From: Craspedostauros australis
Lineage: Eukaryota; Bacillariophyta; Bacillariophyceae; Mastogloiales; Achnanthaceae
DNA length: 64,000 nucleotides
Direction: 5' to 3'
Assembly (NCBI GenBank): GCA_026770025.1
Contig: JAMXDE010000031.1
Location: 310,001-374,000, forward strand
Shown one piece after another: positions 246 to 34,062 of the stretch. Both the position numbers and the translations under genes were made by a program. The notes under the pieces are model-generated. The model saw nothing but the letters and a program-made list of their open reading frames with translations. It did not search any database and was not told where the DNA came from. Numbering within the stretch: the first letter of the stretch is position 1; each line of letters begins with the position of its first letter.

Positions 246-561
246 TATGGAGAAAGTCAATCAATTGATGGACAAAATTGATGTGTTCATGGGGTGGAAT
301 ATTGACATGAAGTGTGGAGTGGCAACAGTGTGGAAGGAGTGTCAGCTGATTGCAAAGACAGCCAAATAAAGGCAAGGAGTGGAACATTATCTTCGAGCAT
401 TGCACTTGCTGCATCCTTTCTCTTGAATGCTGTTGTTGCTGCTGCTGATGCCCATGGAAGTATGGATGGATGGATGAATCCGCACGTTACCACCACATAC
501 CCGCACTTTAGTCACACTTTAGTCACCACCAAACCCAATCGTCAACATATGAACGCTGAAC
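246..561. other. Intergenic or upstream exon/intron of the left partial gene
   Basis: Short overlapping frames on both strands, none with convincing composition. It contains GTT/TGC triplet runs. It separates the left partial gene from the 3' end of the zinc-finger gene at 562. Confidence 0.3.
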
Positions 562-6371: not shown

Positions 6372-6827
6372 TCACCTCTTGCCACGCTTGGAGCGCTTGG
6401 GAGACACGCGCCTCTTTTTTCTGTCGGGTTCATCAGATGCTGCGTCAGCCTCCACGTTCGATGTGGCGGTGCTCGTAGTCGTTGTTGCCGCAGCAGCTCT
6501 CTTGGCCGCCGCATCTTCCATGGCCTGCTTCTCGTTCTTGCTCTTGATCTCCGCCAGCAGCTTCCTCATCTTGTTGAGGTCCTGTCGCAGCGCATCATCC
6601 GGCTTGCGACCCTGATCCAGACCGCGCAAACGTGCGGCCATGAACCGCATCATGCCCAGCGACAAGGCGACGGTGGCCTGCGCCTGGGCACGCATGCCAG
6701 GAGATATGGAGGGTTGATCGGCGGTGTCGTCATTGAGGCGTTCGACGATGGGACGCAGCTTGCGCTTGATGCCGACGATGGCGTCCTTCGTCTTCTTCAG
6801 CGCTTCGCAGGATTTTCGGGTTGCCAT
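6372..6827 (-). CDS. C1D/Lrp1 (Sas10/Utp3/C1D family) exosome-associated protein
   Basis: 151 residues from ATG 6827, no intron. The middle matches the C1D-type core: RAQAQATVALSLGMMRF, then LRGLDQGRKPDD, then LRQDLNKMRKLLAEI (about residues 47-95). In the family this helical segment is followed by a basic RNA-binding tail, and here the tail is KKRRVSPKRSKRGKR. Family members are cofactors of the nuclear exosome in rRNA and snoRNA 3' processing; function here is inferred from the family. The first 45 residues (KKTKDAIVGIKRKLRPIVERL) are helical as expected. It shares a 1.1-kb upstream region with the divergently transcribed P1B-ATPase. Confidence 0.72.
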   Translation of the reverse strand: MATRKSCEALKKTKDAIVGIKRKLRPIVERLNDDTADQPSISPGMRAQAQATVALSLGMMRFMAARLRGLDQGRKPDDALRQDLNKMRKLLAEIKSKNEKQAMEDAAAKRAAAATTTTSTATSNVEADAASDEPDRKKRRVSPKRSKRGKR

Positions 6828-7914
6828 GGTTTACGTGCTTTGTGAAATTGTGCAATTGCGGAATTGTGTTGATTTGTGATCACAATGGGAAGGCGATGAA
6901 CCTTCGACAGGTTTGTGTTCTTGGTTTGTGAAGGAGATGCTGACAGCGCTTGTGAAGGTCGTTGCTCCCTTGAATTGTGGTGTGCGGTTCGAACTTCGAA
7001 TTTGTTGTTCGCATTGTTTCGCTCCCACCGATGTTGCCTTCTCACAACTGATGTGGGCAGTGCTTTGCGTTCTGTTCTCTGTCGTGTTGTGGATGCTTTG
7101 TGGATGCGTTGCGAATGCGCATTGTGGATGTACATTGTGAAGGTGTGCCTTCGTCGCCCATGGTCTTGGTGGGATGTGTCAGCGACGCCTATCAGAGAAC
7201 TTTTTCACTTTTCGTTGGTGTGCGAAGTACGTCTTGGTCTAAGACACTATTTCCCACCAGTAGGTTTTGAATAGGCAGAGTAATAATTGCAAAGATGTAG
7301 TCTATCAATGACGGTTCGCGCAAACCAGAATATGTGCAAAACCGTTTAATTGACGTTACTAGGTAGACATGCGCACCAATCAGGAATGACACAACAGCGA
7401 AGCAGTTGCACAGACTCGCACGACATCGATAAGACTCATAATCGGCATCTTTACCCCTTTTCATCTTACTTGGGTTTCATACGTGTAATGACTTGCTTCA
7501 ATGATGGCTCGCAACCAACATGCTTCGATCGCTAACGAAATTGTCCGAAAAGAACACATGCGAAGAGAGTGGCGTTCCTTCACAGTCGCGGAACTGACGC
7601 AAATTGGATCACTGCGACGGAACACTGTTCTTGCGAACCCCACGCGGTTTCTTGTGTCTGTTCTTGGATGTTGTTCAACCAACGGAGAGTGTGCATCAAC
7701 AAGCTTTGGTTGCGTCCAGCCACCACCTCTGTGAAGGTCGAAGCGAAACTGTGGAGGAACGCTCGCAATCTTTGCGCTATCACACTGATCCGTTCCACAA
7801 ATTGGGAGTGCGCACCAGCCACACAACCAAAGCAACGCAAAGCAAATCTTCCATCCAACAGAGCTACGGGCAAAGTGACTGGAGCAACTGAAGCAACGCA
7901 AGCAAGGCACCACC
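6828..7914. promoter_or_regulatory. Shared divergent upstream region of C1D and the Zn ATPase
   Basis: The two genes are head to head with start codons at 6827 (minus) and 7915 (plus). The space must hold both promoters. Its right half is occupied by a solo LTR (7321-7495) that ends 420 bp before the ATPase start codon. I cannot point to individual transcription start sites. Confidence 0.5.
7321..7495 (+). mobile_element. Solo LTR of the short-LTR copia family
   Basis: This 175-bp stretch aligns end to end with the 174-bp LTRs of the copia element at 35003-41420. It starts CAAACCAGAATATG (element: CAAACCAGGATGC), shares CAACAG and ACTCATAATC in the middle, and ends TTGGGTTTCATACGTGTAATGACTTG (shown here only as part of the alignment: element end has CGTGTAATAACTTG). 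Divergence is clearly higher than between the two LTRs of that element, so it is an older copy. No flanking duplication is apparent. No internal element sequence remains on either side. Confidence 0.85.
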
Positions 7915-10900
7915 ATGAAGCATGGGAAGTGCTGCAGCGACGGCGACAAGCCGCTTTCCTTGATCTCGGAAGGATGCAAGCACAGCTGCGACAAGCACCC
8001 CCATGACGATCCCAGCAAGCACGAACATCCTTGCTGTGACCGCGATGACGACGCTCTCTGCTTGGCGGTCGTCGATGAGAACGGCAACTCCATGTTCGTC
8101 TACGACGCAGACGGCGACGTGCGTTCCTTCGGCTACGACGGCGACATCCGCAAGCTCTGCTTCTCTTCGCACGGCCACGACGCGGACGACCTGCTCACGC
8201 AGTGCTTCGACGAAGAAGGCAAACACGGTCTTCCTGACGAACCCTGCTTCTGCGGCGTGGATACTCCGCATATCCACTCCCACGTCCACGATCCCAAGAC
8301 CTGCAACGATCACCACAAGGCCAACGACGTCTCCAAGCTCGCGACGCTCACCTTGCACGTGGAAGATGACGACGCGGCGCACCATCACAAGCAGCATGCC
8401 ATCGCCATCTCCCAGGCGTTGCCCAACGTCTGCAACTCCAAGAAGGTCCGAGAGCAGCTCGGCAAGAGCGACAAGCACAGCCAGATCCACGGCAAGAGAC
8501 TCTACCCTGTGAAGGTGAGAAAGTTCGAGGCAGACAGACTCCTGACAGACTTCTGACAGTGTTCCGTTTTCTGTTTCTAGCGCGACACTCTGCGAAATAA
8601 TATCCTTGCGCAGGCAGACCCTGCGGTGGGGCGGGAGGCGCGCTCTGTATCATTGTGGAGTATCATCTCACCCCTTTCTCCCGCCTTCCCACTTGCTTGT
8701 ACGCTTGCCTTCACTCTTCATTCTCCGTTCTCCATGTCGCTGTCTATCTCACCCTGCACTGCATTCTTGCATGGCATCGTGTATCTATTCCACTCCACTT
8801 CATGTGCAGCATGATGATCATGAAGATTTCTTGGTTCACGACAAGGAAACAGGCAACTTGCACTTGGAACACTTTTGCGACAGCTGCGATGACCATGACT
8901 ACCACGGAACCATCCCGTTGCTCGACACCCGCGAGATCAGCAACGAAGAAACCGGAGGCAACAACATCCGCTTCCACTTCTTCCAGGTCCCGCCTCCCAA
9001 GCTCAACACCTTCTCCATCACGAGCCTCTTCGAGCCCAACACTTCTGCGCTGGTCCAGGCGTTTCGCTCAGAGGCATTGTCCGCCTTCCGCGAAGCCCTC
9101 GATGACGGCGATGCCAGTGGGGGCAGCAAGTGCAACCGCAAGAAGAAGGTCTACCGCGCGCCATGCTGCGTTGACGGCACTTGCGCGGATCACGGCGCGT
9201 GCTCCAAGTCGGCCGTCGCTCCGGAGCCTCCTGCGGTTGTGGACGAGGAACCGAAGGGTTGCTGCGGCTCTGGCGGCAAGTGTTCCAGCAAAGTGTCCAC
9301 CCATGACCACAAGCACGATCATGGACACAAGCATGGACATGGACACAAGCATGTGCATGAATCGAAAGGTTGTCGCAGCTCCGGAGGCAAGTGTTCCAGC
9401 AAAGCATCCACCCATGACCACAAGCACGATCATGGGCATGGACATGGACATGGACATGATCTTGGGCACAAGCATGTGCATGAATCGAAGGGTTGCTGCA
9501 ACTCCGGCAAATGCAGCAAGCCAAAACCAGTGGAAGAAGTCCCCAAGTCCTGCTGCTCCGGTGGCAAATGTAGCAAATCGGCCGATGATGACCACACCAT
9601 CACGACTATCATGCCAAACGACGAAGCAAACCAGGCAAGCTACATGATGGATGCTGTCGCCAAGTCGACCTTCATTTGCAATGCCATGTGTTGCTCCTCC
9701 GAGGTCCTGATCCTCAAGAAGATCATCGCCGGTGTCGATGGCGTCACGGACTGCAGCTTCAACGTCGCTCTGCGCAAGATCTTGGTGGATCATGACATCC
9801 GTAAGGCTAGCGCGCAAACCATCGCCAATGCTTTGAGTGCAGCGAACTTCCCTTCCACTATCGACACGGATGGAGAAGATCTCATTGCACAAAAGGCGAA
9901 GAGGGAATCGGTTGGTCGTTCCGTGCTCTTCGTGGAAAAGATCTGCTGTGCCAGCGAAGTGCCAGTCGTCAACGGAATTGTCAAGCCCTTTGCAGGCGTG
10001 GAAAGGGTCTCTATCAACACCACCAACAAGCTGGTAAGTTCGCGTTGTGTTTCTTTTGCAGCCTGCACGTGTTGTCGGAGTATTGCAGAGAGAAATGATG
10101 ATCCCTGTACCATCCACTTCAACGGAGCCGCCGACGCTCACAAACTCCCAAAACTATGTGCTTCACAACGCATTCCTCCCCCCATCTTCGCTTGTCGCGC
10201 ATGACGCAACCTCCGACTGCAGGTGTACATTGATCACGACACCTCCATCACCACGATCGACGACATTGCTGGTGCGCTCAACGATGCGCGCTTCGGGGCT
10301 CATATCAAGCAAGATGCAAGCACCCAGCTCGCCACTCAAGCCGCAACCAAGTCGCTCGTGTCCTCCATCTTCGAAATCAGCTTCGGCGAAGCAAATGCGA
10401 TGGATGGCGTCAGCACTGCACTCAACAACTACCTCAAGACTCTTCCCAAGACCAAGGTCGAGTCATTCAACCTGCAGAAGAAAATGGATGGCGACGATAC
10501 TGAGGCTAAGATTGGTTCATTGCGCATCGTCGTGGTCCACAACCCCCTCACCATCAACGCGAATGAACTTAAGCAAGTCATGACCAAAAAGATCGGCAAC
10601 GGCGACGCTACCGCACCCATCATCAGCCTCGCAAGGGATGGTGGAGACTTTGTGAAGTGGGACTTCGAGGAAAACTCAAAGAAGGCAGACAACGACGCCA
10701 ACAGACATGCTGATAACGATGATGACGTCAAGCACGAAAAGGCCACCCTCCGTCCAACCATCATCGCATCTGGCATCTTCTGGATCGTTTCTATGCTCTC
10801 CTTCATCGGAGGTGACTGGGAGCACCTCAAGTACGTCGCCCTCCTTTCGGTCTTCTTTGGCATCCCTCCCATCGCCGCGAAGGCCTTTCAAAGCATCCGT

Positions 10901-17224: not shown

Positions 17225-18261
17225 TCCAATGTGTTCACCGGTATGTACCATGGAGTGTATCTTCTGGTGTGTGCACGCAGAATGGAGAATCGGAACTCGA
17301 CAGTACTGAATGCTCCACGAATAGCTATCACAAACGCAGCGGTCCAACAGACCCCTCGGAACATGTCCTTCTGCTCCATTCTCGAATAACATTAGTAGTA
17401 CCAAGATCGCTGGCGTCATTCACTCTTCCAAGACAACGACTTGAGTACACACTGTGTTGCGCAGAACATACAGCATCTGTCCAGGGAAAGCGTTTACTTT
17501 TGTCCACAAGAGGAATCGCCCGCCATGATGTGGCAAGTGCGAGCAATGATAGTACAGCAGATCTCTGGAACTGGCCGTATTCGTACCCACAGGCTGGGAC
17601 AGACATTCATGCTGCTCCACAGAGGCTAGCTCGGACATGGTTCAGCCGAGGATGTCTCCGAGCATGGACGACGAAGGCCATGGAGTTGCCCCAAGTCTTT
17701 TCTCGTCAGCCACTCCATCTGTTCGTCATCCTTCACGATCAATCTTCAATCAAGGGAAAGAAGCCTTCCGGAAAATCGAAAGGTGGATGATCTCTGTTCC
17801 TTCCAGCCGGAGCGGTGGAACTGGATAGGCACTCACAACTTTTGGGATCCAATGTTACAGGTCACGGCCATACCAGATCACAACTGGTTTTCTAGTACTC
17901 TACTCGTAATCACATTGTGGGATCGAATGTTGCAGGTGCTGCAATGGAAAGGGAGCGCCTTTGTTCATTGAAGAAACGGGGCGCAGGCTTGTGTATGATA
18001 ATTGAAGCGAATGTGGTGCTCCACAGTCGAGCAGGGCGTTCTATTCTGCACTCTGGAGAGATGGTAGTTGTTACAGCTGTACGAGTGTGTATCATTGTAT
18101 GTGTCGAAGCTTATGGCTATGGCATTACATGCATCGCCACGGATGGGAATCCACTCTACGAATACAGAGGAGTACAGCACTCAACATCTATGGCTGGCAG
18201 GGTGCGGCATGTACCATAGGAATGTCGGACATAGAAACAAACCTTCTTGGAACAGTATTTA
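17225..18261. other. Intergenic region left of the transposon
   Basis: No convincing gene. One imperfect direct repeat of about 28 bp is visible: a GGGATCCAATGTTACAGG-like block near 17834-17862 recurs as GGGATCGAATGTTGCAGG near 17911-17938. Frames of 60-190 codons on both strands are not protein-like. Confidence 0.5.
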
Positions 18262-18265
18262 TTAG

Positions 18266-18448
18266 GAGCCCGATCAGTGAGTCGACCAATCGTTTGAAAT
18301 GGACATTCTAACTTTTCATCTGCGATATCCAAACCAAGCACATATTCGTATTCCTTATAATCTCATTATAAATAATTAACCGATCGATTTTTGATGTATA
18401 TACTGTTTTAAGTTTTATGGATCGATCTATATGTTCATTTCAGTCGCG
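18266..18448 (+). repeat. Left terminal inverted repeat
   Basis: The first 35 bp match the right end exactly in reverse. Beyond that, blocks such as AACCAAGCACATATTC, ATAATTAACC and GTTTTATGGATCGAT-like sequence line up with the right end at perhaps 60 percent identity. The subterminal part is AT-rich. Confidence 0.88.
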
Positions 18449-18614
18449 TGGATCCAACAGCACAAAGCCCGTTGTTTTTCGCCGAAGGTTCTATGCTGTT
18501 CTCATGTATTTATCGTGAGGTGATCAGTCACGGACTAGCTTCCGAAGGTGTCAGTCGTTTGGTACGCGTTAATTACACGTTAGCATGTGGCGCATGATTC
18601 CACATTCTGCTCGT

Positions 18615-18684
18615 CACAAAACACATGACACAAAACACATCACACAAAACACATGACACAAAACACATCACACAAAACACATCA
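18615..18684 (+). repeat. 14-bp minisatellite in the transposon left arm
   Basis: Five head-to-tail units of CACAAAACACAT followed by GA or CA. It lies between the left inverted terminus and the transposase start, with a further (CAGTAA/AGT/TTG) triplet-repeat tract at about 18786-18845. Such subterminal arrays can be transposase-binding sites; that is only an inference here. Confidence 0.85.
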
Positions 18685-18955
18685 TCTCCATCATTTCGCA
18701 AAATCGCGCCACACTTTGGCTCCATTCACAACTGTCCTCGCCGATGCCCTGCACACTCGCCCTTTCGCTCCATGCACGTTCTCGTCAGAGTAGCAGTAAC
18801 AGTAACAGTAGTAGTAGTAGTTGTTGTTGTTGTTGTTGCTGTTGCAAGCTGGTTTGCCTTTCATCGGATGCTCTCCTTGCTCACTTCGTCTCAGACCAGT
18901 GCACACCATCACATCCACCTAGCAAACAACACTACTCTCCACCAACAATCCCACC

Positions 18956-19590
18956 ATGTTTCCCTCTGCTGCTGCCAAGGCCCTCTCCAAGGACGGCAAC
19001 CCCTCTCCTCGTAAGAAGCCGTGTTCTGCTTACCCTGTATCTGCTCCTCCATTCGACTCCAAAGGGCTCCTGCTGCCTACTGCAGAGCAACTGTTGCCTG
19101 ACAAGCCATCCGCTGCGTTGAGGAAGCCAACCACCATCACGCAAGTGATCGATGTGAAGCCGATGCTCGCAGCGGATGGCGGCCTCGTCCCGAACGGTAC
19201 GCATGCGCACGCTCGCGAGCTGCACGTGTTCGTACACATCCTTGACAACAACGGAGGCGTCTTCGACGACTCCAACGTCAGGGTGCGTTCGGAAGGACGA
19301 GGTGTCGGCGATGGAGCAGTGGTGAGCGTTATCGTGAACGAGCCACCCCCTGCTGTGCCTGACGTTGCACCACCTGTCGAGCCTGCCCCACCAGCGAGGC
19401 TCCCTCGTCGCTGCAACGCTGTTGTTGCTGGGGGCTACGCAGATGCCTCTGGCGATAGCGACAGCACGTACGACGACAGCGGCAAGGAGCAACGAACACG
19501 CGCCAGCAGGAACAGGAGAGGAGGCCAGTTCGGGTACGACCCGGAAGAGGCGGGAAACTGGAGGCGTGATGCGATCGGTCGTATCATGGT
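18956..19590 (+). CDS. DDE transposase, N-terminal part (interrupted gene)
   Basis: The frame starts at ATG 18956 in a CCACC-ATG context and is open up to the copia insertion point, then continues a little way into the LTR by chance. The 211 residues are Pro/Ala/Arg-rich with no clear fold; they include a short patterned stretch HARELHVFVHILDNNGG and an acidic SGDSDSTYDDSG. The reading phase at the insertion point matches the phase of the frame that resumes at 28083, so this is the N-terminal portion of the same transposase gene. It might carry the DNA-binding part, but no zinc-binding motif is visible. Confidence 0.65.
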
Positions 19591-20291
19591 TGATAATCAG
19601 CAATTACACACAGGACAAGAGGGGAGCACCAAACACTGCACTTACGACGCCGCCTGGGTGATCAATCCAATAGGTGAAGTTGGAGATGTTTGGTGTATTT
19701 GGTTGTTGCTAAGTTAGTGTGTCAATTGATGATTGAGTTTGAATTATGAGATGATGATCTCCTATTGCTAATGATGGTGCCTATTGCACGGGTTTCTAAT
19801 GTGCTGTTCGATTACCTCGTGGTTTTCTCTAAAACATTGCCCAAGATGGCATGTTGATCTACACGATATCTCGTGTTATCTCCACCTTTGGTCTTTCTTC
19901 ATCTCTGTCTGATCTTGTCTGGTCTTGGTCTCTGTTTGATCACATATGGATTGATCCGTCTACGTCGACAAGGTGCATGCATCACCTCTGACGATGTTGT
20001 TCTGGATCCTAAATGTTGTTGCCACGTGCTCAATGATGCACTCGGCATGGCTAGACAGGTCAGCGTACCATGACTAAAACATAATCTCGATTCCGAGGAT
20101 CACAATGACCGATCCTCTGACGTCATTGATGATGTCAGTGCCTACGTCAGGTTCGATGACTGTAGTGACTGAATCTGAATCGTGTATCAAGACTCATCCG
20201 ACTATACTCTCAAATCGAGTCGAATCAGAAAATATTGAATCACATTTCAGTCTTGGGAGATGGGTACCTAATTTCGATCTAGATGTTGATA
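19591..20291 (-). repeat. 3' LTR of the nested copia element
   Basis: 701 bp, no difference seen from the copy at 27382-28082. Read on the plus strand it starts TGATAATCAG and ends AGATGTTGATA. Short identical frames inside both copies are LTR sequence, not genes. Confidence 0.93.
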
Positions 20292-20315
20292 CTCCCCTAT
20301 GGTCGGGAGTCTTGT

Positions 20316-23300
20316 TCATCCACCCAGAGTCTCTCCTTTCCAGAATAGAAGTGGCCTCACTAACGGCCAGTACTTCGCCCATGGAAGGAACTTGGTCATG
20401 ACGTCGGCTACGTTTTCCGTTCCGTCTATCTTGCAGAAATGCAGGATCTTCGCAGCTACTGCGGCACGCACGCGATGGTACGCCAATGCGTTGTGTCGTT
20501 TGGACAACACACTGTTGGGAATGGTGGAGGAAGTGATCACGCTCTGGTTGTCTCCGAACATCCAGGCGGGTCCGTCCAGCGGAATTCCCATCGCACGAAG
20601 AGTAAGGCGCATGGCAATCACTTGTTCTGTTGCCTGTCTTGCCGCGACGAATTCCGATCCGTAGGTTGCAGTCTCGACGGTGGTCTGGCGCTTGCTGAAC
20701 CATTCGATGGGTGTCTGGTTGAGCAGATGGAGAACACCAGTTGCAGATTTGCCTGTCACTTTGCAGTGCATGAGATTGGCATCTACAAACGTCGTCATTC
20801 GAACTGCCTTGCCTTTGGGTGTTGGATCGTCGTCTGCGGTCTCCTCTTCGGCGTCACCATATACAGAGTACATCCATTCATGGTCAGGAACCTTGAAGAA
20901 GCGCTCGTGATCTGGAATTCCCGTTCTGAACCTGATGGCGGCATCAGAACGCTTTCGGAGGTATCCATACACACGTTTGGCGCGGTCCATGTGACCAATC
21001 CTGGGTTGGGCTCTGAATCTAGACAAAGTCATCACAGCTGCAGCAATATCAAACCGTCCCAATGTGATGCACCATTGAAGGGCGCCGATGAGTGATTGGA
21101 ATTGTCTTGTCTCTACAGGGTTTAGTTCGCGTGATGTGTCTAGCTCTGGGGCGTCGTTGTGTTCCATGGGACTGGTGTAGGTCCGTGGAAGCTCCCCATG
21201 CACCTGTTCGTAATTCGCCAGCATCCGTTTGATGTAAGATTGCGGGCTCATAGTCAGGGTTCCGTCTTTGTCTCGGTCGAAGTCTGCGCCAAGGTGATAC
21301 TTGATTGGTCCTACACCTTTCAACTTGTACTTGTACTTGTTGATGAGCGTGTCGAAGAATGACTGTGGGTCTTCCATGACAGCCATCAGATCATCTACGT
21401 ACACACAGATGTATTCCCAGCATCTACCAGCATCCCTCATCCACACATCCGGGTCAGCTTTGCACTGAAGGAACTGCATGTCGCGGAGTGTGTCGGCCAG
21501 AGACTCGTGGAATCGAGCACCAGATGTGCGCAGTCCGTAGAGCGCTTTCACAATGATCATCATGTGACCAGCAAACTCTTGGAACTCAGGACCAGCAACG
21601 AAACAGATCTTTTCTTTTGTGTATGCTTCTAGATAGGCATTACCAATATCACCCACCATGGGTTTGAGGTTGTTGAGTTCTGCTGCAAGCAGTGCAATCC
21701 TGAATGATCTGAGATTGACTACTCCTGCATATGCCATATCCTTGCATGGATCCGTTAAGTGCCCTCCTGCTACGCATCTTGCCTTGTGCCGAAGGTCGTG
21801 CTTCACGTCGTATACCCAGAGGAGCTTGATCTGCTTGTATCCGTCTGGTTTCCGAGTGTTCTTTCCGAGATCCTTGAACGTGCCTTACTCGTGGAGCTGA
21901 TCCATTTCCTTTCTCTCAGCGTCTACCCACTTGGAGTTGCCGTTCTTCTCGTCAAGCTGGCGTGCTTCCTTTCCGTTCCGTGGAACCTGAACACCAAACT
22001 TGAAGATAGGACCTTGTGCACGTGTTTTGCGTTTACCAGCATTGATGAGACGGTTGAGTTTCTTCTTTCTCTTTGCTAGTTTACGGAATCGCTTCCAGCC
22101 AGGCAGACCGAGGAGGTTGTTGTCTGCGGCGTACTTTGCACAAGATACAGGGTCATCTTTGGCGATCACATCCAGTGGTTCCATGGTCACACTGCCATCC
22201 TCCCATTGTACCTTTACGTTGTAGGAGGAGCCATTGTACTTGCTGTGATTGGAGTGGAATGGACCTTCATGACCGGTGATGGCTTTGAAAACGCACATCT
22301 CCCCATCGCCGATCTCCTGTTCGTGTTGCCGTTCGATGATGTCAGCTAAATCCGTGTACGCGATGAGCTCTTCCGTGTCGTCGTCGCCATATGCGATGAG
22401 CATCTTGATGTTGTCATGGTTGGCTGCGTCTCCATCCTTGATCTTGCGGATCACTCGAGCTCTCCACTTGAGTCCATCCTGTTGGTGGAGGAAGGTCAAT
22501 CCGAGCAGCTCATCAGGACTGAACTTGGGGACTTTGACTACACCTGGATCTGATTCTCCATGTGATGTGGCTACCAGGTCAGATAGTGCATGCACAACGG
22601 GTTGTCTAGGTTTAGGTGTGCTGTCACTGTCGAAATCTTCTGGATTTTCGGTTTCGCTAGCTTCGTCACTCACGTCACCATCCTCCCCAGAAGCAGGCAG
22701 GGGGTAGTCTGCCCGTAGGTTTCGCGCGTCATCAGACACACGTCGGATGCTGGAGCGTGGCAACAGCCGTTGCGTTGCGTCATCTAGTACCCAGAACGTC
22801 AGTTCGTCACCCTTGTGCTCGCATGGTCCAGCCCAGCGACCACGCCGTTCCTGCGTGGTGCCTGGGAAGGCAGCGTTCCCGACCTTGTAGTACACTGGCT
22901 CCCACCAGTGGAAGCTGAGGTACTTGCTGACATCAGGGCGCTGGCCTGTGGCGGCTTGGATGGGCGTGATGTGGCCAGCCGTGGACTGCGACAGATGGTT
23001 GAACAGTCCCACGACATACAGGGTGCAGATGAGCCAGAACCTGGCAGGAGTGCCAGTTCTGTCCATGACGCCGTTGGCGGTGCGCTTGATATCCTGGATT
23101 CGTCGCTCGACAGGATTCTGATGTTGGTGGTGTGGCTCGGACTGGTGGTCTGCGATGCAGTACTGCCGGAGAATGTCCTTCATCTTGCCTCCGATCTGCG
23201 CCGTGGCGTTGTCGGACATCAACACGTCCATGGCACCATGCTCCCGAATGAAGTCTTGCACAACATGGGGAACATGGGATTCGCTTGCCAGAGGGTACGC

Positions 23301-25775
23301 CGCTGTGAGGCGCGTGTTGGATCCGACAAACACCTGCACCATGGTACATCCACCGTGTCCGGGGACTCCATCATGATGAGCAGGCGTGTCAGAGAACAAC
23401 GTGTCCATGGAAACAACATCGTGTAGTCGACTGACATTGGCTGCGGGGAATCTAGACTTATAGTGCTTACGCATGGGATAACGCTCAGACATGCGGTACC
23501 ATTGGGTAGTACATGCAAGAGTGTCACGCACGCGGTCTGCTGGGATCCACCCGAAGTAGGGCCGTAGCGCATGGAAGTTGGGCGCTTTACCCACGATGTT
23601 GCGTGGCCCGGCCTTGACCGCCTTCTCCCCATCCCCGAGCGTTGCAGCGGATTGAGCGTACTGAACGCACTTGGAGATGGTGATGTCGATGTCGTCGTCT
23701 TCGCCGCGTTCGGTTGCGGGAATGTTGTCCAGATCAGCCTCCCCGTCCAGGACAGATGGGTCCCATTCTTGGTCGGAGGTGAAGAACACGTGTGGCAGAT
23801 CGTCTAGCTCCGTTTGAGTTGGCTTGTGCATATCCATGTATGCGAGGCCTTGACGCACGGTGAGCGGGATGACGAATCCGTCCGGCGTGACGATGGTCTG
23901 CCGACCGCCAGGGAGACCCTTGGGTCTATCGTTGACATCCAATCCAAACGCCGCGAGTTGGTTGGCAGAATGGATGGTGCGTCCTCTCCCGTAGTTGGCG
24001 TATTGATGGAACCAACCGATCACCGGTCCTGAGGTGGTCTGGATGACAGCGGTGGCCGTGACCAGCGCCAGATCCTTGATCTCTGCGTCACCAATTCCAG
24101 AAACATCAGCTCGGTTGGACGTGGACTCCATCACCAGCATGTCATCCCCAACGAGACCGCCGTTCGCACCTCCATCCACCAATGCGCCTTGCACAGTCAC
24201 GTTCGCGTTGTTGAACTTGTACGATACGTTCGTGTGCGACAGGGTGTAGGTGCGACCGTCAATGAAGAGGGTAGTCGGCGGGCTCCCGGACGCGCTAGAC
24301 ATGGCACTGGAAAGCATACGGTTGATTGCTGTTCCAGCGGTAGAACTAGACTCGTTGTTGTTACTACCTTTGTCGTTGGTCTGGGTGTCCTGTTGGTCGT
24401 TCTGGTTGGATGTGGATCCACTGCGGTTGGTGTTGTTGGCGGAACGCCTAGGCTTGTCCTTCTTACCACGTCCAGACTTGGCTCGCCGGGCTTGGAGGAA
24501 GTCGCTGCGTTGCTTATCCGACAGCTTCTGGAACTCCTCACGTGGCAGCCGTTCTCGTGTCTCCTTGCTGTAGTCCTTGTTGGGCTTCCAGAGATTGGGT
24601 CCGTCGTCCTTATCCTTCCCACGTTGCTTGCGCTGGTCGGTGTTGTTAACTTGCCGTGGCGTCTTTGGCTTGTTGGCGTCGTGGCCATCGAGTTGGACAG
24701 CGTACGATCGAACGAGCTCAACGAGAGTATCGAACTCCATGGTGGTTGCGGTCTTGCCGGGTGAGTAGGCCAGAATTGCGGTCTGCAGGTAGTCAGTCTG
24801 GAAGATAGACTGGTACAGAGCCTTGTCTGCCTCAATGGCGTTGGTCAACCACTCCTTCTTCGTCGCGTCGTCGATCGGATCATCACGCAATGCCTCAAGT
24901 TCGTGTACCTTGTGTTGCCACAGGTCCAGGAACTGCTCACGAGTCTTGCGCCACTGCTTGTCCAGCTTGAACTTGATGATCTCGTCTCGGATGCGTCGGA
25001 TGGTGTTGACGGCAGTGGCACCGGTGGTGTACTCGCGGACCAGCATGCAGTAGACGGCTTGGCCGTCACAGATCGACTCGTACGGAGTGACACACTTCCT
25101 ACTCTTCGTGGTCTGCAGGTTGGATACAAACACGTTGAACAGGAAGGTGGACTGCACCTTGAAGAGCTCGGCTTGTTCATCGGACGGGACGTAGTCAGTA
25201 TCGAGAACATTGGAGATGCCATGAGCAGCAGCGGTGGCACGCAGACGACGATGGAACGTAGCGAAGTACTTGTCATCAGACAACTTGGGATAGTCGCTAA
25301 TGTTACGCTTGATGCTACGGTTGAAATCTGCGGCGAGGTCGCGTCCGGTCTTCTCCGTTGGTTCGGTCTTCGTTGGTTCGAAGGGGAATGCGCTGGTGGC
25401 TGCGTCAGGCATGGCGGTGGAGGATGCAGGCGACGGTGTGAACGCCCGGGCGACATACTCCATGTACGAAGCTTGGTTGAGTTCCCGCCATGTCTCTACG
25501 GTGGGATTAGGTTGAACACTGAACCAGCCAATGGCATTTATGAATTTCCGGATTGCTACCTTAGGCAGTTGGGCTACGTGGTCGGGTTCTGGATCAGGCA
25601 CCTGGATGGTGACGTCCATATCGAGCATGTCTTCGCGTTGGAGCGAAGCGAAATCCATGATGGTTCGGATCTCTTCGGTGTGCAAGATAAGCCATTCAGT
25701 GGACGAGTTGTCATATCCAAGAACGCTAAGGACGTGCGCCAGGATGGTGTCGTTGATTGGGATAGGATCGGGCAT
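20316..25775 (-). pseudogene. gag-pol region of the nested copia element
   Basis: Fossil coding region, read from 25775 downward. In order: a gag-like helical region; an aspartic protease with the DGGANGG active-site form; an integrase core with MSDNATAQ and a QNPVERRI-type third motif; a chromodomain-like segment (VQWEDGSVTMEPLDV); copia reverse transcriptase with a YVDD catalytic box; and RNase H near the end. Composition is uniform through the region. The whole is assigned to copia by integrase lying before reverse transcriptase. It looks almost whole, with about one break. Confidence 0.88.
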
Positions 25776-27381
25776 CGTGTTGCTTGGTGTTGCGAGGAGG
25801 TGGTTGTTGGTCCGGATTTGTTGCTATTTTATCGGACGAGTATTTTCCCGCAGCTCCCAAAAAAGTGGTCACACTTGGAAATGACTGTGCCGTCCGCTGT
25901 GATGTCGAAGCGTTCGCCGGGATGTGACGGTGGACTTCTGCGCTTGTCGGAATTCGTCGGGAATGGAAGTGGTGCCGGATGCAAAGCGCCAGTGATGGCG
26001 AAGGCGTTACCGGTAGCACGCTGTCACGAGTGGACTGCGGTTAATCCGTGCGCGGTGTCTCGAATTGTGACTGACTGACGGATGGAAGGCCAGACGGGAC
26101 CGTGTGAATTTCCCGATTGATGAATGCGAAGATGACCGTGCTTAACCCGAGGCGAAGTATGACCGATGGAAAAATGTCAACCAGGACCGTGTGAATTTCC
26201 CGTTTGGGTGATGTGTTGGCGCGCGACCCGAAGTCGGATGGACGACTGGAACGGCGAAGGAGTTGTGAGCCGGTGATGACGCGCCAGTGATTGTACGAAC
26301 TGAAGGAATTCGCAGCCAATCAGAAGGTGGACTGAGCGCAAATGGGCGTTGTTGATGGAACGATTGTTTGTTTTGTTAGTCTTGAAACGATGAAACGTCG
26401 CGGATGGATTGCGCGTTGGATGGCCCTGCCCGTTCGGATTTCGTCTCCCCGAACGCCGTATTCTTGCGCTTGTTCAGCTGTGCTCCACCAGGATGTGGTG
26501 CACCTTTGGTTTCACCCAGTTGGACCTTCGATCCAATCCGTGCCTCCTTTGAGTGCCACGGATCAGCTTGCTATACGTCTTTTAGATCTGGCAGCAGCTT
26601 GCCCGATGTACCTGATACTAACAGGATTTTGCACGCTAATGAGCGCGGTGCCCCCCAGGTGCCAGCAACTGCTTTGATTCACCTGGTTCCACCACTCGCG
26701 TTTTCGTCCAGCGTATACCTGCCTTCCGGTGTCGTTAGACTCACTTGTGTGATATTGCTATCAGCACAATGCTAGCTTTACGGGTTGCTTCCGCGGTATC
26801 TCTACCGATCACGTTTCTTCCCCAGTCAAGGGCAGACGCTAGTCTGGTTAGCAGTTATCTCTGCGTCCCTTTTGGACGTTAACCGATCTCAAGTACGGCT
26901 TAGACTTAGTGTTAACGACTGACCTGGTCGCGACAACTCACGGTGAGATTGCCGATAGGTTTCAGAGGGCCTTTGCGCTCCAAGTTTTTACGTGTGTCTT
27001 GCTTCACGGGCTTTCACCTTTGTCGATGCTGACCAGGCCAAGTGTTTACGTGTGACTTACTTCACGGGCTTTTACACCTTTGTCTTTTAGCTGACCAGCT
27101 ATCGTAAGTAACGCAGTGGTGCGGAACTTGTTTTGTTGGGAAGAATTACTCCACTTGCGATATTCGCAACAGTGGGTGAGCCTTTCTGCACTCTGGCAGG
27201 GCGAAGCGGGTGTGGCGGCACGTAGCAATCTGCACACACGAGCAATTGGTCCGTCGTCACGAACGCGTTGGGCCTTTCTTGGGCCGAAATCAAAAGGAAG
27301 GGGACAGCGTGATGTCACCAGGGCATGCGCAGCACTTCAGGTTGCTTTCACTCTCACGATAGAGACTTGCGACTGTTAATC
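25776..27381 (-). other. Untranslated leader of the nested copia element
   Basis: 1.6 kb between the 5' LTR and gag, unusually long compared with typical copia leaders. No protein-like frame. It contains two direct repeats: GGACCGTGTGAATTTCCCG at about 26098 and again at about 26184, and a larger tandem pair at 26981-27098. The primer-binding site should lie next to 27381; I cannot match it to a named tRNA. Confidence 0.6.
26981..27098 (-). repeat. Imperfect tandem duplication in the copia leader
   Basis: Two adjacent units of 56 and about 60 bp (26981-27036 and 27039-27098), each running from CAAGT-TTTACGTGTG through CTTCACGGGCTTT and CACCTTTGTC to GCTGACCAG. They differ by a few substitutions and short length changes. 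Confidence 0.8.
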
Positions 27382-28082
27382 TGATAATCAGCAATTACAC
27401 ACAGGACAAGAGGGGAGCACCAAACACTGCACTTACGACGCCGCCTGGGTGATCAATCCAATAGGTGAAGTTGGAGATGTTTGGTGTATTTGGTTGTTGC
27501 TAAGTTAGTGTGTCAATTGATGATTGAGTTTGAATTATGAGATGATGATCTCCTATTGCTAATGATGGTGCCTATTGCACGGGTTTCTAATGTGCTGTTC
27601 GATTACCTCGTGGTTTTCTCTAAAACATTGCCCAAGATGGCATGTTGATCTACACGATATCTCGTGTTATCTCCACCTTTGGTCTTTCTTCATCTCTGTC
27701 TGATCTTGTCTGGTCTTGGTCTCTGTTTGATCACATATGGATTGATCCGTCTACGTCGACAAGGTGCATGCATCACCTCTGACGATGTTGTTCTGGATCC
27801 TAAATGTTGTTGCCACGTGCTCAATGATGCACTCGGCATGGCTAGACAGGTCAGCGTACCATGACTAAAACATAATCTCGATTCCGAGGATCACAATGAC
27901 CGATCCTCTGACGTCATTGATGATGTCAGTGCCTACGTCAGGTTCGATGACTGTAGTGACTGAATCTGAATCGTGTATCAAGACTCATCCGACTATACTC
28001 TCAAATCGAGTCGAATCAGAAAATATTGAATCACATTTCAGTCTTGGGAGATGGGTACCTAATTTCGATCTAGATGTTGATA
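27382..28082 (-). repeat. 5' LTR of the nested copia element
   Basis: 701 bp identical by eye to 19591-20291. Being upstream of gag on the minus strand it is the promoter-bearing copy. It ends exactly before ATGGT, the target duplication. Confidence 0.93.
27909..27916. promoter_or_regulatory. CRE/ATF-like palindrome TGACGTCA in the LTR
   Basis: A perfect TGACGTCA lies about 166 bp inside the 5' LTR in element sense, with near copies GATGTCA and TACGTCA within the next 35 bp. The same motif is at 20118-20125 in the other LTR. TGACGT-type elements bind bZIP factors and mediate CO2/cAMP responses in diatom genes; a role here is inferred. Confidence 0.45.
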
Positions 28083-30980
28083 ATGGTAGCGCTTCGATCT
28101 AACCTAGATCCTACAATCCTCCAGCAAATGCCGACAACAGGATTCGTTCTCACAGGCCAACACGATCGGACCATCTGGAGCTCTGTGAAACAGATGTGGA
28201 GCGTCGTATCATCTGCACTTTGGACTGTCCTGCTTCCAGAAGAGGAGGTGCCAACTTGTCAGATGGAACAGGTGGTTTCATACGTACGCGGCAATGTGGA
28301 GCTTCCTCCGACAATGTTGGCATCTAACCTGTACACCCTCTGCTTGCTCGGACAAACTACACCATCCCACACGGTGAGAGCTGCTTTGGCCATGTCTGCA
28401 CCACATGCACTGTGCACTGCTATCTTGGGCAAGCACGCACATGGGCTGTCGGAGGAACAGAAGGCGCGCATGCTTTCCAAACGCGACATCATCACGCAGA
28501 GCCAGGCCTGCACCTTGCGCGGTTACTATGACATCTTGAGCCACGGCGAAGTCATCCCATCACGGGTTCTCCAGTATCGCGTGCGTGCCAGTGATCTCTC
28601 TGGTGTGGTGTCCTTCCTCATGACAACTACTACATACAAGGCAGGGTTGAGTCACACGGTACAGTATGGGGGGGTTGAATTCGAAAATGTCCCAGTGTTC
28701 GATCGAGGTGGCACGACCATCCGAGAATTATTCGGCATGTACTCGTCCACTACAAACAACGCAGTGGGAAGGCCGGCGTTCACCATCATTACTAACCTCC
28801 TCACACGCAAAAGCAAGATCAAGACGGGGCTTTCTTCCTTCGAGAGTTACTTCTGGATGGCAACAGAGAAACTCAAACAGGCAATTTCGCGCCTAGTCGA
28901 GCTGCTGGAGGCTAAGTATGAAGCGGATGGGGAGGAGAAAAACGATGATACTGTTGATGCCAATGACGAGCCGGATGACGTCATCTTGTCACATGTGTGC
29001 ACGGCAAAGTCCCTCTTGCATGCACTTGAGCTGCTTGTCGTGTTCCTCAAATGGGAATTCACCGCATCTCACTTGCAGCATGAGTGTGATGACCCAATGC
29101 ATTCGGCCACGTTCGCTCTCACCACCAAAAAGGAGAAGAAGAAGGCAACATCCACATCAACCAATCAACGCAAACCACGCACCAACAAGCACAAGCGGAA
29201 GAAGACCACCACCATCACAAACAACATTCCAATCATCACAAATGACATTCCTGTGACCACCGCAAGCGAACAACCACGTAAAGTATGCAACCGTTGTGGC
29301 GCAGCAATGCGATTTGTGGATGATCGTTTTGTTCCTTTTGTCAAAATGCTTAAGGACAACGAACTCACGGAACACAAAGACGAATTGCAATCAATGCTTG
29401 CGGCGGCGCCAGGATTCGCCAACGAAATTGTTAACTACATGGCTCACAAAGTGCGTGCCAAAGTTCAATTCAGACAAATCGACTTTTATCAATCCGAACT
29501 CAACAACAAGCCTGAAAGAGCCTATGTGGTACTCGACCATAAGCAAAAAATTCTACCAACAGGCCAAAGCGAAGCCCAACAAGAATATTGGGGGAAGAAG
29601 GGAATGTCACTGCTCGGGGCAATGGTCATCACGTGCGAAAACGACATTTTTACTTATCGGTTCATCGACATTGTGGTCGATGGAAGACCGACACAAGACA
29701 CTCTTCAAGTTGGTGGACTGCTGGAGATTGTGCAAAAAAAGGTCAAAGACATTCTCCCATCCGTGACTGAAATCATCCTACAGAGCGATAACGCGTGTTG
29801 CTTCGCCAGTCACGAGCACATCGCGCTCATCACGTCCAAACTCAACAAGAACCTTGTGACACGAAACGCGGCCAAAATCATCGCGTGGATCTACACGGAG
29901 GCCCAAACCGGTAAGAGCATGCTGGACACCCACTTCGCGTACATCACCCGTGTGCTGCGAAAATACGTGCAAAGTGGACACGACATCAAGACCCTGCTGC
30001 AACTCTTCGAGGCACTGGTCGCCGGTAACATCGTGGGTACCACCACGGTACTGGCCAACGCAGAGACCCTTGAAGGCAACATCACGACGTTACCGGGCGC
30101 ACCAAAAAGGCGATTCCGCGCAAGTGGGCAACAGGTACGTCAGACTCACGAGGTGAAGTATGACGATGACCAGGCACGGCTGGTGGCTGCGTCTGGCATC
30201 ACGGAAGACGTCGTGGTCAAGAGCGCCGAATGGGAAGAGTGGATCATCAACAAGTTGGGTGTCCTCCCTGCCGATTCGCACACGTCCGACAAGCTGCCGA
30301 TCACGTCCGAATCGTCCAGGAAGACGGACAAAACGCGAAAACTCGGGCGCACAGCGACAGAGAGCAAGGCGTTCGCGATCGGCAAAGCCCTCCAAGACGG
30401 ACAACAACATCTACCATCCGATCACACCACAGCACTACAAGACCAGACCGCGGAAACCGAACACCCACCACTCGCAGTGCCAGGTTGGGCAAGCAAAACA
30501 ACACGGACCAATGCCAAACTACCAGACTACATCGCGGACAAATTGAAGGGCATCTGTGCAGCATCCGCGAAGGACCCGAAGAACAGACCGTCCGAACACG
30601 AAGCACATGAGAAACTGATGAAGGACGAAAAAACCAAAACGGACTGGTACGTACAACTGCATGCAAATCCCATGCGTGTCAAAGCCTCGTTGTTTGCAGC
30701 GTACAACGCCAAACAACGCAAGGACAAGAAGCAGGCCGCTCTGATCAAGGCGGAAACCAACACCAACACCAACACCAACACCAACCCAACAAGCACAGAA
30801 ACAGCATCTGCAATCGTGGCGACCCACAATGCGCCAGCTGCAACAGAGGAGGAACGAAGAGAAGAAGAGTTGCGGAGAGAGGAGGAGGAATTGGAGAATC
30901 AGAGGTGGTGTGATGCGCATACGATGAAGGCGAACACAGAAAGTGAGGCTGTGTTGGATGATGGGACAGAAATTTTGTGA
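28083..30980 (+). CDS. DDE transposase, catalytic and C-terminal part
   Basis: About 965 residues after the copia insertion. A C-x2-C motif (CNRCGAAM) precedes an RNase-H-like core with three acidic residues in the expected order: Asp in VVLDHKQKILP (codon 29535), Asp in ILQSDNACCF (29787) and Glu in YTEAQTGKSMLDTHF (29898), a D-x84-D-x36-E spacing; the Asp in LDTHF (29925) is an alternative third ligand. The surrounding pattern, SDNA then E-x-QTGKS-x-LDTHFA, reminds me of unnamed transposase-like proteins of protists and invertebrates. The C-terminus is basic then low-complexity (NTNTNTNT and an EEERREEELRREEEE helix). The gene lies inside matching inverted termini. Assignment as transposase is strong in context, superfamily unknown. 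Confidence 0.72.
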   Translation: MVALRSNLDPTILQQMPTTGFVLTGQHDRTIWSSVKQMWSVVSSALWTVLLPEEEVPTCQMEQVVSYVRGNVELPPTMLASNLYTLCLLGQTTPSHTVRAALAMSAPHALCTAILGKHAHGLSEEQKARMLSKRDIITQSQACTLRGYYDILSHGEVIPSRVLQYRVRASDLSGVVSFLMTTTTYKAGLSHTVQYGGVEFENVPVFDRGGTTIRELFGMYSSTTNNAVGRPAFTIITNLLTRKSKIKTGLSSFESYFWMATEKLKQAISRLVELLEAKYEADGEEKNDDTVDANDEPDDVILSHVCTAKSLLHALELLVVFLKWEFTASHLQHECDDPMHSATFALTTKKEKKKATSTSTNQRKPRTNKHKRKKTTTITNNIPIITNDIPVTTASEQPRKVCNRCGAAMRFVDDRFVPFVKMLKDNELTEHKDELQSMLAAAPGFANEIVNYMAHKVRAKVQFRQIDFYQSELNNKPERAYVVLDHKQKILPTGQSEAQQEYWGKKGMSLLGAMVITCENDIFTYRFIDIVVDGRPTQDTLQVGGLLEIVQKKVKDILPSVTEIILQSDNACCFASHEHIALITSKLNKNLVTRNAAKIIAWIYTEAQTGKSMLDTHFAYITRVLRKYVQSGHDIKTLLQLFEALVAGNIVGTTTVLANAETLEGNITTLPGAPKRRFRASGQQVRQTHEVKYDDDQARLVAASGITEDVVVKSAEWEEWIINKLGVLPADSHTSDKLPITSESSRKTDKTRKLGRTATESKAFAIGKALQDGQQHLPSDHTTALQDQTAETEHPPLAVPGWASKTTRTNAKLPDYIADKLKGICAASAKDPKNRPSEHEAHEKLMKDEKTKTDWYVQLHANPMRVKASLFAAYNAKQRKDKKQAALIKAETNTNTNTNTNPTSTETASAIVATHNAPAATEEERREEELRREEEELENQRWCDAHTMKANTESEAVLDDGTEIL

Positions 30981-32644
30981 TGGGTGTGCATCACCGCGAT
31001 AACACGAGTTGTGGAGTTTTGTGGGCGCCCGGCCAGGCTACTAAAACGAGTCTAGAGGCCATCCAAAAACACATCCAAATATCGGCTTATCATGCTATAT
31101 CTCAACAACAAATCGCTTAAAATTATATCTAAACATTGCGTTCGTACACATGACTATCGGTTAATCAGAATATCGAAGTTAAATGAGTATAGGAAATATT
31201 TTGGTAGTCATGTTGGTTTGCTGTGTTTTGTGTGGTGGATTCGGGAAATTCTCGATCAACCAATGTTGCCCTCCCCTCAACACCCATGATGATCATCATC
31301 ACTGTTGCATTTCTGTAATATGCGCATCACAATCGCTCTGTATACCCCCCATCTACCCACTCCATGAAGGATACAACGTTTTGGCCACATTGCATGCCCC
31401 AAAGTGTCCATACACTGAAAAAGAGTGATTCCAAAAAACGATTTTCAAGCCGGATGCGGTATGGATACGGATCCATACCTCATGCACATGGCCCTTTCAG
31501 CCCCTTCACGTGCCTCTCGTGCATTCCCACACTCCCTGGTGACATGCTGATGCATCCAGAGGGGGATGGGCATCGATGGTCTTGATGGTACACCTCCATT
31601 TGGTGATGCCATCTCTTTTCGTGGCACCCCACCAAAAAATGACCTGTCTGTACTCATTCGAGGCCACAGCCTCTTCCAGACAATATCTGCGGCGCGAACT
31701 TCGCGACGTGCATCTTCCGTTGGTGCCGCACGTATCTTCGATGGGCGACTTGGCGATTGGGTGGCTTGATGATGCTGCCTGTCACAGCCAAAGCCACACC
31801 ATGGGAACCCCCGCGATACACCGCCAAAACTCTTGCCCTCCACTGTTTCCTCCGCGCGGACACCTTCTCCGTCGTCCCCGAGCCTCAAACTTCGTGGTAT
31901 CCTTGGTGATGGCCTTTCGGATGCGTCTTGCGCATCCATGGGCGTTGGTGTGTGATGTGTATGGAGCACACGTCCCACATCCAACAAGCCGATCCGGCGC
32001 CAAATTGGGACGTTTGCGCGGGGGCCTGCCGCCGCCCCAAATGAACCGCTCTTCCCGCCTCCGTTCGTCTACCCACCAAACGTTGCGTGGAGGTTACGGC
32101 GATGTGCTTGAATCTTGAATTGGCCGGCTGGTTGTTGCGGCGCCAAGCATACCGTTGGGCGGCCATTGTGGATGTTTTTTGGGTGTGGCTCCATTTTCAT
32201 GTTGGTGTGTCAAGTTTGCCACTCTCAACCGGCCTCGCATGTTGGGGGATGGGGAGATTTACCTCCAATTGTACCGACTGTCCAAAAAGACCACGACACA
32301 AAACACTCGAGGAGTACCAACCCCACTCAACCACTTCGCCACGACGAAGCAGACCTGATGATGTTGCGCATCGCGATATCATTGGTGTTTCATGACGAAG
32401 TATCCAGTTTCGTGACGTCGATGACGGATTGGACAAGCACATGGTTGAATGCATGTAAACACAAATCTACCGCTTCTCCCCAAAACTCCACAACTAGTGC
32501 TATCGTGGAGGGACTGTTGGATGGTCTCATCCGAACACCTGAAAAAGAGACTAAACAATTCAAAATCGGAACAAAGTCGCTGAAACAAAGAACAGCAAAG
32601 GGTTAAATTGGATCGATGTAGTCGGATGTCAAAGGCTGAAACCC
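30981..32644. other. Right arm of the DNA transposon, no assigned gene
   Basis: 1.66 kb between the transposase stop and the right inverted terminus. Two overlapping 180-codon frames on opposite strands exist (31445-31987 minus and 31576-32118 plus). Only one at most can be real and neither has a recognisable domain. The block at 31450-32170 is GC-richer than the AT-rich sequence at 31050-31250 and 32600-32800 that surrounds it. Confidence 0.5.
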
Positions 32645-32832
32645 GAAAGAGATCGGAAAATGCGCATATCCATCGGTCCATAAAAGTTAAAATAGGATCT
32701 AACTCAAAAATGTAATGGTTAATTATGTGTATTAGACCTACAAGTATTATGAATATGTGCTTGGTTAGTATGTAGGAGAGAAAATTTCTGGAGGTCTATT
32801 TCAAACGATTGGTCGACTCACTGATCGGGCTC
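32645..32832 (-). repeat. Right terminal inverted repeat
   Basis: Inverted counterpart of 18266-18448. The outermost 35 bp (32798-32832) are a perfect match and end in GATCGGGCTC, followed at once by TTAG. Confidence 0.88.
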
Positions 32833-33042
32833 TTAGCATTGTACGTGTTTGCGCTTGTGGTGACGAAGGTCCTGGAGCACAGCAGGTAACACAACAACAG
32901 AGTTGAATTGAGTGGGGGTGATGTAATTGTATAGTGCTTCTATGATGTGATACGAGTTGGTAAGTATGAATGCGAGAATGAACAAGTCAATTGTTTCATC
33001 TCATGTCGGTGGGGTCAGTGCTGCCGTTGCTAATGCGCATCT

Positions 33043-34062
33043 CTACCCATGGAAGGAGATGCTGGAGATGACTGACTGCTCATCGTCCGAGCCATCGTTG
33101 CATTCATCCTCGTCGTTTGTTGGCAACGTCCGGGGAATGATGACGCTGGTGATCTTGCGCCGTGGGTGTGACGCCCTTGGTCGTTCCAGTCCCTGCAGCT
33201 TGCTCCTCACCGCCATCATGTCCGTGTGGCAGGATCTGCTCTTCTGTCTCTGCGTCTGCGGCTTCTTCGATCTGGCTGGTCGACGTCTTGAGCCCGATGC
33301 ACCGTGCCCGCTGCTGCCGTTCGTGATGCTTCCGGCGTTGGTCTGATGTCTCTTGCCTGCTCTCGGTTTGCTTTGTCGTGATGATGACAAAGCAGCATCG
33401 CCTCCACGAGGAGGCAAGGGCAGGGTGACGGATTGGATCCTCTGGCGCAGCGATTTGGATGCCTGCTGCTGCTGCTGTGGACTCGAGTTGTCATTGTCGC
33501 TTGCGTCGCAATCTTCATGATTCGATGAACGGTCGGTGCTGGGAGTCACGGGCTGTCGGCACGTGGGGCAGCTGCCGTGGCGCTTCAACCATGGCTGCAG
33601 GCACTTGGAATGGCAGAAGTGACCGCATGGCATATAGGTCACGGTTTCATCGATCTCGAACAGCTCGAAGCAGATGGAGCATCCCTTGCAGCGCGTGGGC
33701 AGTCCCCGCAGCCGCACGACGACCAAGCCGCTCTCATCGGAGATCGACGGTGGCAGGGACGATGCCTGTGTTGGTGGTGATGCTGCGACCTCCGGCGACT
33801 TGGAGCGTTTCCGTGGCGTCGAGGGTGACTTGTGATGATGCTTGACGCTGGAGCTCGTGCTGAGCCTCTTTGCGAGCATGGACTTGAGAATCCTGGCCTT
33901 CATTGCGAGGGGCTCCTCATGGCTGCGGTGAGGATCAATGATGACCGACGTTGGTTCTTCCTCCACGCCACCCACCCGGACGGAGGATGCCGAGTTGCCA
34001 TGTCTTGAGTCTCCGTTGGAGCCTCCACGGCGTGGTCGGGAGAGTGTCTTGAAGATGCCCAT
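33043..34062 (-). CDS. RING-H2 finger protein, putative E3 ubiquitin ligase (339 aa)
   Basis: Starts at ATG 34062. A canonical C3H2C3 RING lies at residues 128-168: C128-x2-C131, C146-x-H148, H151-x2-C154, C165-x2-C168, with MPCGHFCHSKCLQPWL between. This form recruits E2 enzymes in known RING-H2 ligases. N-terminal residues 1-120 are basic and Ser/Pro-rich (SPSTPRKRSKSP). The C-terminal half is low-complexity with Gln (PQQQQQ) and Arg/Lys runs and no membrane span, so a soluble, perhaps nuclear, ligase is likely. It is the only host gene between the two large mobile elements. ATG context and the open frame support a single exon. Confidence 0.85.
   Translation of the reverse strand: MGIFKTLSRPRRGGSNGDSRHGNSASSVRVGGVEEEPTSVIIDPHRSHEEPLAMKARILKSMLAKRLSTSSSVKHHHKSPSTPRKRSKSPEVAASPPTQASSLPPSISDESGLVVVRLRGLPTRCKGCSICFELFEIDETVTYMPCGHFCHSKCLQPWLKRHGSCPTCRQPVTPSTDRSSNHEDCDASDNDNSSPQQQQQASKSLRQRIQSVTLPLPPRGGDAALSSSRQSKPRAGKRHQTNAGSITNGSSGHGASGSRRRPARSKKPQTQRQKSRSCHTDMMAVRSKLQGLERPRASHPRRKITSVIIPRTLPTNDEDECNDGSDDEQSVISSISFHG

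Follow-up and report, generated by a model that had tools for sequence, protein, structure and literature searches.

An unassigned diatom DNA transposon family with GAGCCC termini and 4-bp NTAN target-site duplications, one copy of which is interrupted by a Copia-type retrotransposon

Eukaryotic DNA transposons are grouped into only 24 superfamilies in Repbase (PMC12730594; here and below, described systems are characterized from passages of the cited papers). Sola elements combine a DDD transposase with 4-bp target-site duplications (TSDs), lengths of mostly 2-9 kb, very variable termini and terminal inverted repeats (TIRs) of 11-1124 bp, and have been reported from bacteria too (PMC10741241); Sola2 of dictyostelids uses AWWT-type sites, including AAAT and ATTT (PMC3627910), and Sola-1 and Sola-2 have been reported in the stramenopile Ectocarpus (PMC12477816). 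Ginger2 has TGTNR termini, an RTATAY target, TIRs of about 50-180 bp and, in animals, 4-bp TSDs (PMC2836005), and piggyBac inserts specifically at TTAA (PMC7351741). Here we describe an element in a 64,000-nt stretch of the diatom Craspedostauros australis (contig JAMXDE010000031.1, positions 310,001 to 374,000 of the forward strand; hereafter the window), which very probably belongs to a family of autonomous cut-and-paste DNA transposons about 6 kb long and is here interrupted by a long terminal repeat (LTR) retrotransposon of Copia type. This reading is based on ends shared among many copies, on exact 4-bp duplications that read NTAN, on empty sites with a single copy of the target, on codon-phase bias in the open reading frames (ORFs) and on a predicted catalytic core.

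A preliminary description of the locus had reported 35-bp perfect TIRs with TTAG on both sides, and both were recovered exactly (Table 1). The two ends differ from base 36 on, and the weaker inverted match beyond, earlier put at about 185 bp, is present with a length of about 178 nt at 76% identity. Allowing up to 3 mismatches, a 19-bp terminus has 2 matches in the window against a mean of 0.03 in shuffled sequence, and across the genome (74.8 Mb in 90 contigs) there are 65 matches to the 35-bp end and 174 to the 24-bp end, with 0 for either reversed control. The shuffled window, the genome-wide matches and the reversed controls rule out a chance inverted repeat, and the termini, far from recurring only once as the preliminary description had allowed, are widespread. 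Both ends were present in 16 of 20 loci fetched, and only one in the other 4. Fifteen copies (L009-L023) measure 6.0-6.7 kb, five of which (L018, L019, L020, L022 and L023) are mutually 98.8-99.8% identical. The TIRs of the family start with GAGCCC at both ends; among 17 elements measured (L009-L023, the window copy and L032, a divergent relative described below), they are perfect for 35-42 bp in 13 and carry a base-6 mismatch in the other 4. The family is multi-copy and apparently recently active. Convergent end pairs among the listed matches lie at least about 6 kb apart, and no derivative resembling a miniature inverted-repeat transposable element is seen there (for the 24-bp end, 100 of 174 were listed).

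The 35-bp ends identified 16 loci besides the window copy; in 15 of these 17 elements the two 4-bp flanks are identical, and every one of the 15 TSDs, none of them selected for TA, reads NTAN. Twenty-nine further elements were taken from 180 matches to a TA-containing pattern, of which 100 were listed (reversed control, 1), so that the TA of these elements is there by selection; their 4-bp flanks agree, repeating exactly 4 bases, in 29 of 30 pairings. The exception is a pairing of L083 with a wrong right end, and the alternative right end of L083 does agree. As a control, ends taken from two different elements agreed in 93 of 870 comparisons. With L032, which has TTAG on both sides, exact 4-bp TSDs flank 45 of 47 elements, confirming the expectation that further copies would share the termini and a 4-bp duplication. 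TTAG itself, first presented as the specific duplication, is ruled out in that role and belongs to a broader class of 4-bp duplications that read NTAN. When flanks were joined, 4 of 17 pairs (L010, L017, L020 and L021) were found uninterrupted elsewhere, at 100% identity over 86 bases (L017, L021), up to 99% (L010) and 94% (L020); as the scoring covered 40 of 331 candidates, there may be further sites. We read these as probable empty sites with one TSD copy. In the cycle that such marks suggest, the transposase would bind the TIRs, double-strand cleavage just outside GAGCCC would free the element, its 3' ends would be joined to the two target strands at points staggered by 4 bp about a central TA, and gap repair would create the NTAN duplication.

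The shared ends might alternatively belong to an old inactive repeat multiplied by segmental duplication rather than transposition, a reading to which we give hardly any weight. It draws on two loci of a related lineage, B, whose genes lie inside a near-identical segment that exceeds 18.5 kb and in which no TIR was found. It is contradicted by the empty sites and the unlinked flanks: among the fetched loci, the flanks of 17 elements match their own places only, the exception being a repeat beside L017. The exact TSDs and the five near-identical copies also argue against it.

The family element carries one gene, encoding a transposase of roughly 1,170 residues. A genome search with it returned 547 first-look candidates; each of the 40 scored spans 1,063 or more of the 1,170 residues and is 84-100% identical, and 32 are free of internal stops. 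A comparison of the intact copies L020 and L009 shows ORF substitutions concentrated at the third codon position (114/92/236); the same comparison gave no codon-phase bias, and no second gene, in the 3' 1.6 kb, which has ORFs on both strands. Because codon phase is seen in the ORF and not in the 3' region, the element seems to carry a single selected gene.

The core motifs of the transposase are LDHKQK ... QSDNA ... TEAQTGKSMLDTHF. The aspartates D695, D779 and D825 are conserved in 50/50, 50/50 and 48/48 alignment rows, and in the predicted model D695 lies on b1, D779 at the end of b4 and D825 at the start of the last core helix. The protein is modelled with an RNase H-type core of three conserved aspartates, a predicted DDE/D fold, which, with the 4-bp TSDs, agrees with the earlier assignment to the DDE-type TIR transposons. 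In structural comparison of the predicted models, all 50 listed rows in both listings are retroviral integrases or mariner-type transposases; piggyBac, hAT and RAG chains are absent among these 50 rows, which excludes nothing, and Hermes, a hAT transposase, is present in the Foldseek lists. Foldseek against viral predictions gave no match below E 0.1.

Sequence searches of Pfam, NCBIfam and PDB returned no convincing match for the transposase, and thus no firm placement in a named superfamily, the other outcome that the preliminary description had considered. Each of fourteen Pfam families matched 1 or 2 of the 26 members (E 0.0028-0.093); apart from rve, these are taken as chance matches. The Pfam catalytic domains of hAT, Mutator, P, PIF/Harbinger and Merlin gave none at E <= 0.1 in 26/26 members of group A1 and none at E <= 1 in 6 proteins (5 from outside A1), a result that leaves remote kinship possible. 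An NCBIfam cytidylyltransferase model matched P0004 alone (E 0.00056, 19 bits against a cut-off of 193) and was taken as chance; the single PDB profile match, latrophilin, is at chance level (E 0.11). The relatives P0002-P0062 are eukaryotic and metagenome proteins with the same motifs, including one of the diatom Dactyliosolen fragilissimus (P0002), and carry no transposon or family name in the sources examined; 25 relatives are 27-40% identical to the family transposase P0001 over the portion of the core that aligns. A similar pattern, SDNAGCY ... SEPQAGK..CDR, may occur in uncharacterized animal proteins. The divergent member P0019, used as query, found only 4 close proteins. No prokaryotic or viral relative was confirmed in 106 viral-contig and 41 genome-contig stretches, a scan whose sensitivity was limited by its one or two short motifs.

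The SDNA motif and the predicted integrase-like fold would also suit an integrase-derived transposon of the Ginger-like or IS3/IS481-like eukaryotic groups, as would weak matches to rve (2/26 members) and IS3 (1/9 proteins, E 0.16) and the features shared with Ginger2/TDD, namely a 4-bp TSD (5 bp in TDD-4/5), a similar TIR length and an AT-centred target. We regard this origin as improbable. No rve match is better than E 0.085, and the GAGCCC termini differ from the TGTNR of Ginger1 and Ginger2 (PMC2836005), the TGT of Banshee, likely an IS481EU family, and the mostly TA..TA ends of IS3EU/GingerRoot (PMC10045372). Only the central TA of the NTAN target is fixed, in contrast to the RTATAY target of Ginger2 and the CCGG or CCGT TSD of Ginger1. 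IS3EU/GingerRoot, moreover, has a 6-bp TSD, and IS481EU, with an IS481-like transposase from parabasalids, has TSDs near 4, 15 or 25 bp (PMC10045372); the diatom family, set beside the description of the latter, has TSDs of 4 bp and GAG ends.

Other superfamilies differ in their defining features. Tc1/mariner duplicates a 2-bp TA (PMC10741241), whereas the TSD here is 4 bp, and the transposase, at about 1,170 residues, differs from Mos1 and has no Pfam Tc1/mariner match. The site of piggyBac is likewise 4 bp with a central TA, but TTAA makes up only 6/44 exact TSDs counted here, and a piggyBac Pfam match is lacking. CACTA, Mirage, Chapaev and Transib have C(2)C and H(3-4)H between the second D and the last acidic residue (PMC12730594), whereas residues 780-824 of P0001, the one protein inspected, contain neither CxxC nor H(3-4)H; Zisupton (KDZ) has an 8-bp TSD (PMC12730594), compared with 4 bp here. 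The misfits to Mariner, piggyBac and, as far as P0001 goes, CACTA asserted in the preliminary description are borne out, and the family is outside the superfamilies whose tested defining features it lacks, Sola having been compared by description only; we leave it unassigned. The open-licence PMC literature, as far as its passages go, yielded no description of a GAGCCC/NTAN family, and the family may have been described in print outside that literature.

There remains Sola, and the diatom family could quite possibly be a branch of it, within Sola1, Sola2 or some fourth group; it would then be a new member of a known superfamily, set apart by an unusual rule of target choice. The 4-bp TSD, the DDD-type transposase (here predicted), the length of several kb and the variable termini all fit (PMC10741241), as does the presence of Sola-1 and Sola-2 in Ectocarpus (PMC12477816). 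Against it, the AAAT and ATTT sites of dictyostelid Sola2 (PMC3627910) contrast with the central TA of the 15/15 unselected TSDs, and our low-sensitivity scan confirmed no bacterial relative, although Sola is reported from bacteria (PMC10741241). As a tentative proposal to which we give equal weight, the family may instead represent a separate superfamily of eukaryotic DDD transposons, as yet without a name and diverse among diatoms, whose joint defining marks would be GAGCCC..TCAGT-type ends, a 4-bp NTAN stagger and the motifs LDHKQK / SDNA / TEAQTG-LDTHF.

A protein search with P0004 revealed further transposase lineages in the same genome, from which six loci were fetched. In L032 (lineage C), whose ends were scanned with the terminal sequence left free of assumptions, the end pair 107-8428, which has GAGCCCATTCAGTC ends, scored well above all others. 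The L032 transposase shares about 25% identity with P0001 across some 950 residues, the L032 terminus has 53 genome matches (control, 0), and 9/9 further pairs of this terminus have exact 4-bp TSDs. A quick tree of 43 proteins unites lineages A, B, C and D of this genome (SH-aLRT 99), the distance between A and C being about 3.1 changes per column; P0016, P0017, P0021 and P0026 have long branches and are placed unsurely. The lineage B transposase (L029:3006-6899 and L030, on contigs C28 and C43, with a similar match on C14) has 1,298 residues with catalytic motifs intact and, as no TIR or TSD was found, is possibly an immobile or domesticated copy. A tandem-repeat array is suggested at L032:1121-3161, where off-diagonal matches with about 77-bp spacing lie between the transposase gene and one end of the element. 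In lineage D, the left edge of the shared part (L033:1717-1757) adjoins sequence like the end of the Copia-type LTR of the window.

Several observations weigh against an autonomous cut-and-paste family. Neither excision nor transposition has been observed, mobility being deduced from sequence. Identical flanks are absent in 2/47 elements (L013, CTAT/CAAT; L026, CTAG/TTAT), and the TSD count does not include L024, L025, L027 and L028, whose fetched stretches contained one end only. Being repeat copies, the empty sites may not be alleles; 8/40 scored transposase matches have internal stops; and the ends of the divergent lineages B and D were not found (D has no paired ends). In the predicted model, the choice of D825 rather than E816 as the third catalytic residue comes from secondary-structure order, not superposed coordinates. 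No Foldseek match against known structures fell below E 0.001, and the best ranks mix Mos1 with the nuclease domain of the human cytomegalovirus terminase.

In the window copy, residues 1-211 and 211-1170 of P0001 match as separate pieces (Table 1), and the insertion point of the Copia-type element lies inside the transposase reading frame, near codon 211. The DDE-like gene had been called the only clear one and its catalytic part given as 965 residues; that part does carry the predicted DDD core, but it is only the 3' portion of an interrupted gene of about 1,170 residues, and the interrupting element has a clear gene of its own. This contains a match to RVT_2 (E 4.9e-24), which we take to be a mark of Copia, with its frames on the minus strand. 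Its two LTRs are identical at 701/701 positions, suggesting a recent insertion. One in-frame stop at 21884-21887 (minus strand) separates a 1,312-codon frame (21885-25823) from the reverse transcriptase frame (20316-21884); in an element with identical LTRs, it could be recoding or a mutation. Minus the retrotransposon and one copy of its TSD, the window copy is 6,070 bp, comparable to family copies elsewhere. Since the insertion it is unable to make an intact protein; with both ends kept, it could in principle be moved in trans. Tandem 14-bp repeats (CACAAAACACATSA) lie at 18615-18684, upstream of the transposase start, and Rfam has no match in 17500-33500, so no structured RNA is recognized there.

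Table 1. Features of the transposon copy in the window (window positions)
Feature	Position	Strand	Remarks
Left TSD, TTAG	18262..18265
Whole DNA transposon copy	18266..32832	+	14,567 bp, including nested retrotransposon
Left TIR	18266..18300	+	35 bp perfect; weaker match to about 18440
Transposase residues 1-211	18956..19588	+	left of Copia insertion; 94% identical to P0001
Left TSD of Copia-type element, ATGGT	19586..19590		5 bp
Nested Copia-type LTR retrotransposon	19591..28082	-	8,492 bp; not belonging to DNA transposon
First LTR of Copia-type element	19591..20291		701 bp
Second LTR of Copia-type element	27382..28082		701 bp
Right TSD of Copia-type element, ATGGT	28083..28087		5 bp
Transposase residues 211-1170	28083..30977	+	with DDD core; 95% identical to P0001
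3' region of DNA transposon	30981..32650		probably non-coding, from other copies (L020 vs L009)
Right TIR	32798..32832	-	35 bp perfect; weaker match from about 32658
Right TSD, TTAG	32833..32836

Elsewhere in the genome, silicon transporter (PF03842) has 88 matches, 32 over at least 480/513 positions, with clusters on contigs C2 and C3, which looks like a large expansion unless the assembly is partly duplicated; light-harvesting protein (PF00504) has 61 matches. Together with the best protein relative, these two families, marks of a photosynthetic silicifier, indicate a diatom.

A recently active diatom family with near-identical full-length copies would provide a natural insertion system whose target, NTAN, is short and loose, and would name part of the unclassified repeats in algal genomes. 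It would let one ask how a TA-centred 4-bp stagger arose in an enzyme fold-related to Mos1 and integrases. If the family is indeed a separate superfamily, it would extend the TTAA specificity of piggyBac to NTAN sites in general.
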